Source of the DNA: Anaerolineae bacterium CG2_30_57_67
GTDB taxonomy: Bacteria; Chloroflexota; Anaerolineae; Anaerolineales; Villigracilaceae
DNA length: 44,073 bases
Assembly: GCA_001872455.1 (NCBI GenBank)
Contig: MNXJ01000080.1
Span: 1-44,073, forward strand
Direction of reading: 5' to 3'
Part shown: positions 34,826-37,546 of the stretch, piece after piece
Layout: every line of letters begins with the position of its first letter
How positions within the stretch are numbered: position 1 is the stretch's first letter
Translations under genes and position numbers: made by a program
Notes under the pieces: model-generated
Told to the model about the DNA's origin: nothing
The model's input: the letters and a program-made list of their open reading frames with translations, nothing else
The model's database searches: none

Positions 34826-36610
34826 CTATACCTTCCCCAACCGCGCCATTTCTTCTTCGGCCACTTTTTCATCCAATTTTTTGAAGAGCGGGGCGGGCGG
34901 GTTGAGCAGCGCGCCAGGCTGAAAATCACTGGGCCGCCACCAGGTTTCCGAAGCCGGGCGGTAGCGCAGGCCAGTATGCGTGCCGAGCGCATCGGGGATT
35001 TCCTGCGTAAATTGTTCACCAAACAGCGGGGAAGTGTAGCCAAAAAAGCCATGCAGGCGGGCACTGGTGAAGGGCAAAAAGGGCGCAAACAATACTTTCA
35101 GCGAGTCAATCGCTTTGAGCGCGGTGAAAATCGTCAGCGCGGCAGAATCGCGGTCGGTTTTGATGGCCGTCCAGGGGGCGTTGGCATCCAGGTAGCGGTT
35201 GACTTCCGTCGCCAGGTGGAAGGCTTCGCGCAGGGCGTCGCGCAACTTCACCGCCTCGAGCAGCCCGCCAACGGATGCGAATCCCGCTTCGATGGCGGCC
35301 AGCAAGGCCCGGTCGGCTTCGCGCAAGTTGGCAGGGTCAATCGTCGGGGCGTGGCCTTCCCACTGTTTGAAGCTGAAGGAAAGCACGCGGTTGGCGAGGT
35401 TGCCCCAGGTTGCCACCAGTTCGCCATTGTTGCGGGCGACAAAATCGTCCCAATCCCAGTCGCTGTCTTTGTTTTCGGGCATGTTCACCGTCAGATAGTA
35501 GCGAATGGCGTCGGGGTCGTAGCGCGTCAGCGCATCGCGGCCCCACACCGCCCAGTTGCGGCTGCCGCTGATTTTTTGCCCCTGCAGGTTCATAAATTGA
35601 TTGGCGGGAACATCATGCGGCAGAGTCAGAGAAACGCCGGGCTCGCCGCTGAAAATTTCGGCAAATTGTTGGCCCACGCCCATCAATTCGGCGGGCCAGA
35701 GCGATGTGTGAAAGAAAATGTTGTCCTTGCCGATGAAGTAATATTGCCGCGCCGCCGGGTTGCTCCACCAATCCTTCCACTCGCCGCCGCTGATGCTGCT
35801 CCACTCGATGGCGGCGGAGAGGTAGCCGATGACGGCCTCGAACCAGACGTACAGGCACTTGCCGTCCCAGCCTTCCACCGGCACGGGAATGCCCCAATCC
35901 AGGTCGCGGGTGATGGGGCGCGGCTTCAGCCCCTCGGCGGTGATTTTGCCGAGCGATTCGCCCAGCACGGTTTCGCGCATGTGGTCAGAACGTTCCTTTA
36001 GAAATTCCACCACGCGCGGCTCCAGCTTGGAAAGATCAATGTAGAAATGTTCGGTTTCGCGCAGTTCGGGGGTCGAACCGTCCACTTTGGAACGCGGATT
36101 GAGTAGTTTCTCCGGTTCGAGCACGTTGCCGCACTTGTCGCACTGGTCAGAACGGGCGCCCTCGTAGCCACACAGGTAGCAGGTTCCCTCCACGTAGCGG
36201 TCGGGCAAAAACTTGCCAGCGGCGGGAGAAAACCATTGCATGGATTTTTGGGTGAAGAGGAAACCGTTCTCTTTTAGCGCCAGAAAAATGCTCTGCGAAA
36301 CGCGAAAGTGATTGGCGGTGTGCGTGCTGGTGAACAAGTCGTAGGTGATGCCGTAGCCCTGAAAAACCTCGAGAAACGAGGCATGGAATTTTTTATAGAC
36401 GGCTTCCACCGGTAAATTTTCCGCATCAGCGCGGATGGTGACGGGCGTGCCGTGCGAGTCGGTTCCGCTGACCATCAGCACGCGGTTGCCCTTCAGGCGG
36501 TGATAGCGGGCGACAATATCGCCAGGCAAATGCGAACCGGTGATATTGCCAACGTGAATTTCGGCATTGGCGTAGGGCCAGGCAATCGCAATCAAGATGT
36601 TTTCGGGCAT
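34826..36610 (-). CDS. metG: Methionyl-tRNA synthetase
   Basis: MetRS charges tRNA(Met). The 594-residue class I synthetase has the HIGH variant HVGN (19-22), a single four-Cys zinc knuckle (CYLCGYEGARSDQCDKCG, about 143-160), the KMSKS variant KISGS, and an anticodon-binding helical domain. There is no C-terminal EMAP tRNA-binding domain, so it is the short form. CAGGAGG lies 7 nt before the ATG. Transcription must pass an intrinsic terminator located only 17 nt before the start codon, preceded by a Met-rich leader ORF, indicating attenuation control by methionine supply. It is monocistronic and convergent with scpA. Confidence 0.96.
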   Translation of the reverse strand: MPENILIAIAWPYANAEIHVGNITGSHLPGDIVARYHRLKGNRVLMVSGTDSHGTPVTIRADAENLPVEAVYKKFHASFLEVFQGYGITYDLFTSTHTANHFRVSQSIFLALKENGFLFTQKSMQWFSPAAGKFLPDRYVEGTCYLCGYEGARSDQCDKCGNVLEPEKLLNPRSKVDGSTPELRETEHFYIDLSKLEPRVVEFLKERSDHMRETVLGESLGKITAEGLKPRPITRDLDWGIPVPVEGWDGKCLYVWFEAVIGYLSAAIEWSSISGGEWKDWWSNPAARQYYFIGKDNIFFHTSLWPAELMGVGQQFAEIFSGEPGVSLTLPHDVPANQFMNLQGQKISGSRNWAVWGRDALTRYDPDAIRYYLTVNMPENKDSDWDWDDFVARNNGELVATWGNLANRVLSFSFKQWEGHAPTIDPANLREADRALLAAIEAGFASVGGLLEAVKLRDALREAFHLATEVNRYLDANAPWTAIKTDRDSAALTIFTALKAIDSLKVLFAPFLPFTSARLHGFFGYTSPLFGEQFTQEIPDALGTHTGLRYRPASETWWRPSDFQPGALLNPPAPLFKKLDEKVAEEEMARLGKV

Positions 36611-36627: not shown

Positions 36628-36655
36628 AAAAAAGGCCATCCGTTTGCGGACAGCC
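36628..36655 (-). terminator. metG attenuator: intrinsic terminator
   Basis: On the minus strand GGCTGTCCG (36655-36647) pairs with CGGATGGCC (36642-36634) across a CAAA loop, including two G-U pairs, followed by TTTTTT (36633-36628). It stands directly before the metG ribosome-binding site. Its 5' arm contains CTGTCCG, which can pair alternatively with CGGACAG at 36694-36688. Confidence 0.8.
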
Positions 36656-36682
36656 TCCGGGGTGACGTGACGACGCCTTCCC

Positions 36683-36742
36683 TCACTCTGTCCGGGGGAA
36701 AAAACGGGGCATTGCCATCAGCGAAAGAGAAGAAAAAGCCAT
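36683..36742 (-). CDS. Putative metG leader peptide (19 residues, Met-rich)
   Basis: The ORF reads MAFSSLSLMAMPRFFPRTE and stop. Met codons are numbers 1, 9 and 11. The -10 box TAAAAT ends 6 nt before its ATG, so the mRNA would start at or near this codon and the peptide would be translated without a ribosome-binding site. Codons 17-19 (CGG ACA GAG) contain CGGACAG, which is complementary to the terminator's 5' arm. A ribosome waiting at Met9/Met11 would leave this arm free (antitermination, metG on); one that finishes at the TGA would cover it (termination, metG off). That is the logic of classical amino-acid attenuators. No expression evidence exists; the reading is inference from the sequence. 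Confidence 0.6.
   Translation of the reverse strand: MAFSSLSLMAMPRFFPRTE
36688..36694 (-). promoter_or_regulatory. metG antiterminator arm
   Basis: CGGACAG is a perfect 7-nt complement of CTGTCCG (36653-36647) in the terminator. The pairing would exclude the terminator stem. It overlaps the last three sense codons of the leader ORF. Confidence 0.6.
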
Positions 36743-36748
36743 GCGCGT

Positions 36749-36754
36749 ATTTTA
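36749..36754 (-). promoter_or_regulatory. metG -10 box
   Basis: On the minus strand TGGTAAAAT is an extended -10 box, with TTCAAC about 18 nt upstream as a weak -35. The predicted start coincides with the ATG of the leader ORF. The leader to metG is about 130 nt, too short for a T-box riboswitch. Confidence 0.6.
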
Positions 36755-36809: not shown

Positions 36810-37223
36810 CTATGGCTTTCTGACAGAAACAACTTGTTTCAAATGCTCCAAATGTTCCCTATCCAGGGAAATCAGTTCGGTTGCAAAACGCGTTGCAACT
36901 GCGGCATAGACCGCGTCACTGCCGCGCAGGTGATAGTGCGCGGCCAGATTGGCGGCGGTTTCCGCCAAACTTTCATCCAGAACAATGAGCGTACTGTTCG
37001 GAAATTGACTGACTTGAATGGCATACGCATAACCGAGGTCAGGCTTTCCCTGTCCACGGCCGAAGGCAGCCGCGATTTCGGGAATGACAAGGGTAGGGAT
37101 GATGATAGGCGTATTAGAATCTCTTACGCCGCGCATGAACGTTTTGCTGGTTTCGTGTTCTTCCTCAGAAGGCGTAAATGCACTGATAAAAACACTGGCG
37201 TCAATGGTCACGGGTGAATTCAT
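36810..37223 (-). CDS. PIN-domain toxin (VapC-like)
   Basis: PIN-domain toxins are metal-dependent RNases. The 137-residue product has the four acidic residues of the active site: Asp8 (TIDASVF), Glu49 (IPEIAAAF), Asp103 (GSDAVYAAVA) and Asp121 (SLDREH). Its start overlaps the antitoxin stop by 4 nt (ATGA), typical of translational coupling in toxin-antitoxin pairs. The RNA target is unknown. Confidence 0.88.
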   Translation of the reverse strand: MNSPVTIDASVFISAFTPSEEEHETSKTFMRGVRDSNTPIIIPTLVIPEIAAAFGRGQGKPDLGYAYAIQVSQFPNSTLIVLDESLAETAANLAAHYHLRGSDAVYAAVATRFATELISLDREHLEHLKQVVSVRKP

Positions 37224-37477
37224 CGCCGCATCTCCGAGAGAATTTCGACCGCGCTTTTTTCACTTGTCCAATTTTGGGCAATCTCCTCACCCAAATGTTC
37301 CAGCCGCGCCCAAACTTCGTCCACATCCGTCTTTTTGATTTCCGCGTCAATGGGAATGATGAGCGCAGCGGGTTTGCCATGCTGGGTGATGATGTAACGG
37401 GCGCGGGTTTCTTTCACAGCGCGCACCACTTCCGATACGCGGGCTTTCAACTCTCGAATGCCAATCTCTTCTGTCAT
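37220..37477 (-). CDS. Antitoxin of the Phd/YefM type
   Basis: The 85-residue product begins MTEEIGIRELKARVSEVVRA and continues RYIITQHGKPAALIIPID, the N-terminal DNA-binding fold of Phd/YefM antitoxins; the C-terminal part would wrap the toxin. The start at 37477 is supported by GGAG about 9 nt upstream; in-frame codons further upstream precede or overlap the promoter region. The pair with the PIN toxin is a mixed combination seen often in bacteria. It probably represses its own promoter through the repeat at 37491-37516. Confidence 0.88.
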   Translation of the reverse strand: MTEEIGIRELKARVSEVVRAVKETRARYIITQHGKPAALIIPIDAEIKKTDVDEVWARLEHLGEEIAQNWTSEKSAVEILSEMRR

Positions 37478-37490
37478 TTTGAACACTCCA

Positions 37491-37546
37491 ATTGTGGTTC
37501 CAGATGTGGTCACAATCATTTTACGTTCGCCCTGAACCTTTGTCAA
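37491..37546 (-). promoter_or_regulatory. Toxin-antitoxin promoter and probable operator
   Basis: TTGACA (37541-37546), a 17-nt spacer and TAAAAT (37518-37523) form a near-consensus promoter on the minus strand. Just downstream, ATTGTG (37491-37496) and CACAAT (37511-37516) form an inverted repeat with a 14-nt gap that covers the start region; it is the likely binding site for the antitoxin. Confidence 0.7.

Follow-up and report, generated by a model that had tools for sequence, protein, structure and literature searches.

T-boxes are the usual device for the control of aminoacyl-tRNA synthetase genes, and the locus studied here raises the question of how metG, the gene for methionine--tRNA ligase, is controlled in Anaerolineae bacterium CG2_30_57_67. 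The window, that is, the whole stretch of DNA that we analysed, comprises 44,073 nt (contig MNXJ01000080.1). The initial annotation had placed a methionine leader-peptide attenuator in front of metG, apparently read from a leaderless mRNA. Comparison of the window with its relatives indicated that metG is very probably controlled by a ribosome-mediated methionine leader-peptide transcription attenuator, and that the version carried by the window's family is quite likely leaderless.

A methionine-rich reading frame in front of metG

We read the window sequence directly and found every annotated element on the minus strand at its coordinates. The -10 box, the 6-nt gap, the 19-codon ORF with Met9 and Met11, the CGGACAG arm, the terminator and the metG ribosome-binding site agreed base for base with the initial annotation. 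The features are as follows.

36757-36749, minus strand: extended -10 promoter element TGGTAAAAT (sequence reading)
Between the -10 box and the leader ATG, minus strand: 6-nt gap ACGCGC (sequence reading)
36742 (ATG) to 36683 (end of TGA), minus strand: leader peptide ORF of 19 codons, MAFSSLSLMAMPRFFPRTE followed by the stop (sequence and relatives)
36718-36716, minus strand: putative regulatory Met codon 9, within ATG GCA ATG (36710..36718)
36712-36710, minus strand: putative regulatory Met codon 11, within the same ATG GCA ATG (36710..36718)
36694-36688, minus strand: predicted antiterminator arm CGGACAG, within codons 17-19 and complementary to CTGTCCG of the terminator
36658-36631, minus strand: intrinsic terminator hairpin GGAGGCTGTCCG-CAAA-CGGATGGCCTTT (sequence; relatives)
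36653-36647, minus strand: terminator 5' arm CTGTCCG, common to terminator and predicted antiterminator
36633-36628, minus strand: terminator T-tract, six T (sequence reading)
36622-36617, minus strand: metG Shine-Dalgarno site AGGAGG (sequence reading)
34826..36610, ATG at 36610, minus strand: metG, methionine--tRNA ligase, the putatively regulated gene

The downstream gene was identified as metG by a TIGR00398 match above the cut-off, the terminator lies between the leader ORF and this gene, and the transcript is predicted to begin with the leader start codon. In the proposed switch, RNA polymerase would initiate on the A of the leader AUG or right beside it, and the leaderless short ORF would be read by ribosomes. 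When Met-tRNA is plentiful, the ribosome would reach the stop codon and cover CGGACAG, the terminator would form and transcription would stop short of metG. If charged elongator Met-tRNA ran low, the ribosome would wait at the Met codons, the arm would pair with the 5' strand of the terminator, no terminator would form and metG would be transcribed, which would restore the charging of Met-tRNA. We infer the leaderless start of the transcript, the stalling of the ribosome and the response to methionine.

The window by itself is modest evidence for a methionine leader peptide. Its arm is a perfect complement of the terminator 5' arm (7/7), and a 7-nt perfect complement was found in about 1% of shuffled ORF tails. 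The local fold was no stronger than that of shuffled sequences (z = -0.04), and simple terminator and promoter scans of the leader region gave no more sites than expected by chance. Such background values would also suit a random short ORF followed by the terminator of the upstream gene, and the weight of the leader-peptide reading comes from conservation, which is considered below.

Directly upstream of the leader lie a PIN-domain protein (36810-37223, minus strand) and a Phd/YefM-type antitoxin (about 37220-37520, minus strand), which together are a toxin-antitoxin-like pair. The gene before metG in several relatives resembles the C-terminal end of a sigma factor, suggesting that the pair in the window may be an insertion.

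We then considered an overlooked T-box or SAM-type riboswitch as the controlling element of metG. T-boxes are common in this family, as they were present in 26/26 genomes tested, and the window's genome contains six, before pheS, thrS, a trpB-like gene, ileS, trpE and valS. However, the matches listed for this genome precede other genes, and none of them is on the metG contig. No Rfam match was obtained at metG in the window or in 35 further metG loci, including T-box RF00230 upstream of metG and the SAM riboswitch families, and a loose threshold applied to the local stretch gave no match either. The region, at 130 nt, is also short for a T-box. A riboswitch of either type at metG is thus exceedingly unlikely, and the contrast with T-boxes drawn in the initial annotation holds for this genome. 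Among leuS, glyS and a hisS-like gene, the only three genes inspected for leader peptides of their own (in three genomes, namely that of the window, G000, and those of G008 and G006), none was seen to be preceded by one.

Conservation of the leader in the family

We collected metG upstream regions from 90 genomes of the same family as the window and searched them for a -10 box TA[ACT]A[AC]T followed after 5-8 nt by an ATG or GTG that opens an ORF of 10-50 codons. A leaderless-looking short ORF with at least two internal Met codons was found in 82/90 regions, compared with 11/3600 dinucleotide shuffles (0.3%) and 0/90 reverse strands. At least three Met codons were present in 72/90 regions and in 0/3600 shuffles. 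Beyond these 82, two further regions (L064 and L083) also carry the ORF, with a 9-nt gap. About 5 of the 90 regions have no leader, and some of these may be mis-assembled or truncated. Far from being missing in relatives, the ORF and its alternative stems are thus conserved across the family, and a chance origin was rejected by the comparison with shuffles, leaving it a practically negligible probability despite the background values of the window.

Met was the commonest residue of the family leader peptides, accounting for 16.0% of 2186 residues. With the strict -10 box and no Met filter it was still the commonest (16% of 1027 residues), indicating that the richness in Met was not produced by the filter. 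The -10 box was TAAACT (39) or TAAAAT (36) in 75/83 family leaders, and the gap between it and the ATG was 6-7 nt in 80/83. As the -10 box lies 5-8 nt before the start, there is no room for a Shine-Dalgarno site between them. A terminator hairpin with a T-tract was found after the ORF in 81/83 leaders by automatic search, and the remaining 2/83 have the hairpin with a T-poor tail.

Motifs such as MVTMTMAMRMEM in the peptides resemble Met-rich metal-binding peptides, and many leaders end in -AR ahead of the stop. Both features would fit a small Met-rich protein with a function of its own, such as copper binding, with the hairpin as the ordinary terminator of its gene. However, the peptides range from 18 to 50 aa, vary widely in sequence and always stand before metG; the codons ahead of the stop are explained by their pairing with the terminator, and a separate gene gives no reason for the near-constant distance from the Met codons to the arm described below. 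We therefore regard a small protein as very improbable and retain the attenuator as the preferred reading.

Two further observations were made on the family leaders. In L039, L042, L054 and L069, metG has no recognisable leader ORF, and L039 and L042 retain the TAGTAAAAT box. A palindrome with the core CACTTGCACCTGGCGCAAGTG lies in frame inside the leader ORF, between Met codons, and leaves the switch unbroken; the core is exact in L029 and L041, variants occur in L010, L040, L073, L076 and L083, and three relatives each carry the palindrome at 3-4 sites in the genome.

Ribosome positions and alternative pairings

The geometry of the leader was assessed with an assumed ribosome footprint that extends from 18 nt upstream to 12 nt downstream of the A-site codon. 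The results showed that the arm is free in 81/82 leaders when the last Met codon occupies the A site, and is covered in 82/82 when the stop codon does. The distance from the last Met codon to the arm is near-constant across the family leaders. The parts of the leader, their conservation, this geometry and the mutually exclusive pairings are all directly readable from the sequences.

The 5' strand of the terminator can pair with the last ORF codons or the stop codon in three forms. Type A1, to which the window belongs, pairs GGACAG or GGGCAG with CTGTCC (25 genomes), and its arm begins exactly 16 nt past the last Met codon in 21/25. Type A2 (40 genomes) pairs TGGAAAGCACGTT(AG) with AACGGGCTGTCCA and has two mismatches inside the duplex, and type B pairs GCCAG with CTGGC and has an entire terminator of different sequence (17 genomes).

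We next folded the leaders as they would be before the 3' arm of the terminator is made, keeping the ribosome footprint unpaired. In the window, the probability that the terminator 5' arm pairs with the ORF arm was 0.86 with the ribosome at either Met codon and 0.10 with the ribosome at the stop codon. The mean probability fell from 0.83-0.91 at Met to 0.16 at the stop in type A1, and from 0.61-0.74 to 0.07 in type A2. In the absence of a ribosome, pairing with the arm had a probability of 0.85 in the window and means of 0.45 (A1), 0.40 (A2) and 0.16 (B); no clear or strong protector (1:2) stem was seen in the window, and its arm is available without a ribosome. The full-length RNA usually favours the terminator at equilibrium, indicating that the switch must be kinetic.

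Without a strong protector stem in the window, where the arm pairs at a probability of 0.85 with no ribosome present, failed initiation would also give readthrough. This points to an extension that we consider rather unlikely, in which the leader AUG would itself be part of the sensor and methionine would be sensed at two points, initiation and elongation. MetRS also charges the initiator tRNA, so that a shortage of methionine would both lower initiation on the leaderless leader and stall its translation. Whereas failed initiation leads to termination in classical attenuators, in the window it would lead to readthrough. If true, such a two-point sensor would be possible only for a methionine attenuator.

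The initial annotation had suggested a check for co-variation of the Met codons, the complementarity of the two arms and the T-tract. In a MetG tree built by a quick method, A1 and B leaders are close neighbours at several places (L015 with L021, L022, L025 and L028; L004-L006 with L007; L002 with L003), indicating that both sides of the pairing were replaced together, either more than once or by exchange. Arm and terminator sequences are replaced jointly between lineages, from the GGACAG-like form of A1/A2 to the GCCAG/CTGGC of B, with complementarity kept. Within type A2, the arms are conserved and do not covary. Sliding the arm dropped A2 pairing from 74% to at most 45%, and re-dealing the arms among genomes was not worse, with 437/2000 re-deals reaching the observed value, so that covariation within A2 was not significant.

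A duplex test against shuffled tails gave an only moderate mean z of -1.36 over 81 leaders, and the window was not significant in it. RNAalifold returned no structure for the A2 alignment; a pair of competing pairings is beyond what a nested consensus fold can represent. In type B, the pairing came out weak when folding was nested. A strongly conserved sequence, CAGTTC..GCCAG.TGAACTGCGGGACGGTT...GCCGCCT, is found in type B leaders from distant genera (e.g., L007, L011 and L025). In their conserved CAGTTC...GAACTG hairpin, the loop carries GCCAG and the 3' strand contains the stop codon, suggesting that the type B antiterminator might be a pseudoknot. Taken together, the attenuation logic of the initial annotation is supported by the family-wide ORF, its Met codons, the complementarity of arm and terminator and the spacing from -10 box to ATG.

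Probable leaderless and leadered versions and their known counterparts

We searched nine relatives for the strict form TAGTAAAMT-N5-8-ATG and found 0-5 matches in each; this strict form had no match in the window's genome, whose box is TGGTAAAAT. The other TAGTAAAMT matches in the nine relatives are mostly at the starts of long genes (e.g., those of MutS-like and RelA/SpoT-like proteins), indicating that leaderless starts appear to be nothing unusual in this lineage.

A Met-rich ORF and a terminator before metG recur in further families of the Anaerolineales, and none of 22 regions from outside the order was found to have such an ORF. The ORF begins 6 nt past the -10 box in families f6, f11 and f4. 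In several leaders of families f8, f14 and f7, read by eye, a TTGACA-type promoter lies 20-35 nt upstream instead, together with a Shine-Dalgarno-like site. Leadered metG switches that combine a TTGACA -35 with a Shine-Dalgarno-like site were observed in the sister families at L119, L124, L125, L137, L171, L172, L173, L175 and L203.

These promoters and sites would also suit a real switch that is not leaderless in the window's family, with transcription starting further upstream and a Shine-Dalgarno site serving the leader ORF. Against this, the -10 box stands 6-7 nt before the ATG in 80/83 leaders of the window's family (f1), and the same -10 pattern elsewhere mostly marks real gene starts, so that we hold a start further upstream to be improbable and the leaderless start to be the better reading for this family. 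The leadered versions in sister families indicate that the switch is older than, or independent of, the leaderless start, and that leaderless reading is not essential to it.

The metG leader resembles the trp/his-type attenuators and the pheST attenuator of gamma-proteobacteria in combining a terminator and a competing antiterminator with an ORF that contains codons for the amino acid under regulation, and pheST is also an aminoacyl-tRNA synthetase operon (PMC1262725). Unlike these, the metG switch concerns methionine and metG, has a predicted leaderless start and shows no clear protector stem in the window. In Streptomyces lividans, leaderless leader peptides have been proposed before leuS, trpS, thrS and the metNIQ operon, and alaS is likewise proposed to follow a leader peptide (PMC8079986); attenuators at trpS and leuS of Actinobacteria, and none for methionine, were predicted in 2005 (PMC1262725). 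The leuS, trpS and thrS cases share with metG a predicted leaderless leader peptide before a synthetase gene, and the proposed metNIQ leader likewise contains Met, but the Streptomyces cases belong to another phylum and other genes. No typical terminator is given for metNIQ in PMC8079986, whereas the terminator and its complementarity at metG are conserved in about 80 genomes.

Leaderless short ORFs in amino-acid-responsive attenuators are also known from the trpL transcript of Sinorhizobium meliloti, which begins at its own start codon (PMC7298713), and from polycysteine ORFs of mycobacteria (Canestrari 2020, as cited in PMC13236596). Both concern a different amino acid, and the mycobacterial case is described in PMC13236596 as translation attenuation, unlike the mechanism proposed for metG. 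The T-box (RF00230) likewise controls synthetase genes, in the window's genome pheS, thrS, ileS and valS, but it senses uncharged tRNA directly and has no match at metG. In a partial search of the literature, we found no paper on a methionine attenuator at metG or on attenuation in Anaerolineae. The type of switch is classical, and judging by this search there seems to be no earlier report of it for metG or for Chloroflexota. The novelty suggested in the initial annotation appears to hold for metG, but it does not extend to leaderlessness itself, as leaderless attenuators have been reported in Streptomyces and mycobacteria.

The metG leader would extend the classical attenuators to methionine, to metG and to a phylum in which hardly any experimental work on RNA exists. 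As the same genomes use T-boxes for other synthetase genes, two sensors of charging would operate side by side, raising the question of why the ribosome is used for methionine. With leaderless and leadered versions present in sister families, the contribution of leaderless initiation can be tested directly, and the element predicts that transcription and translation are coupled in the Anaerolineales.
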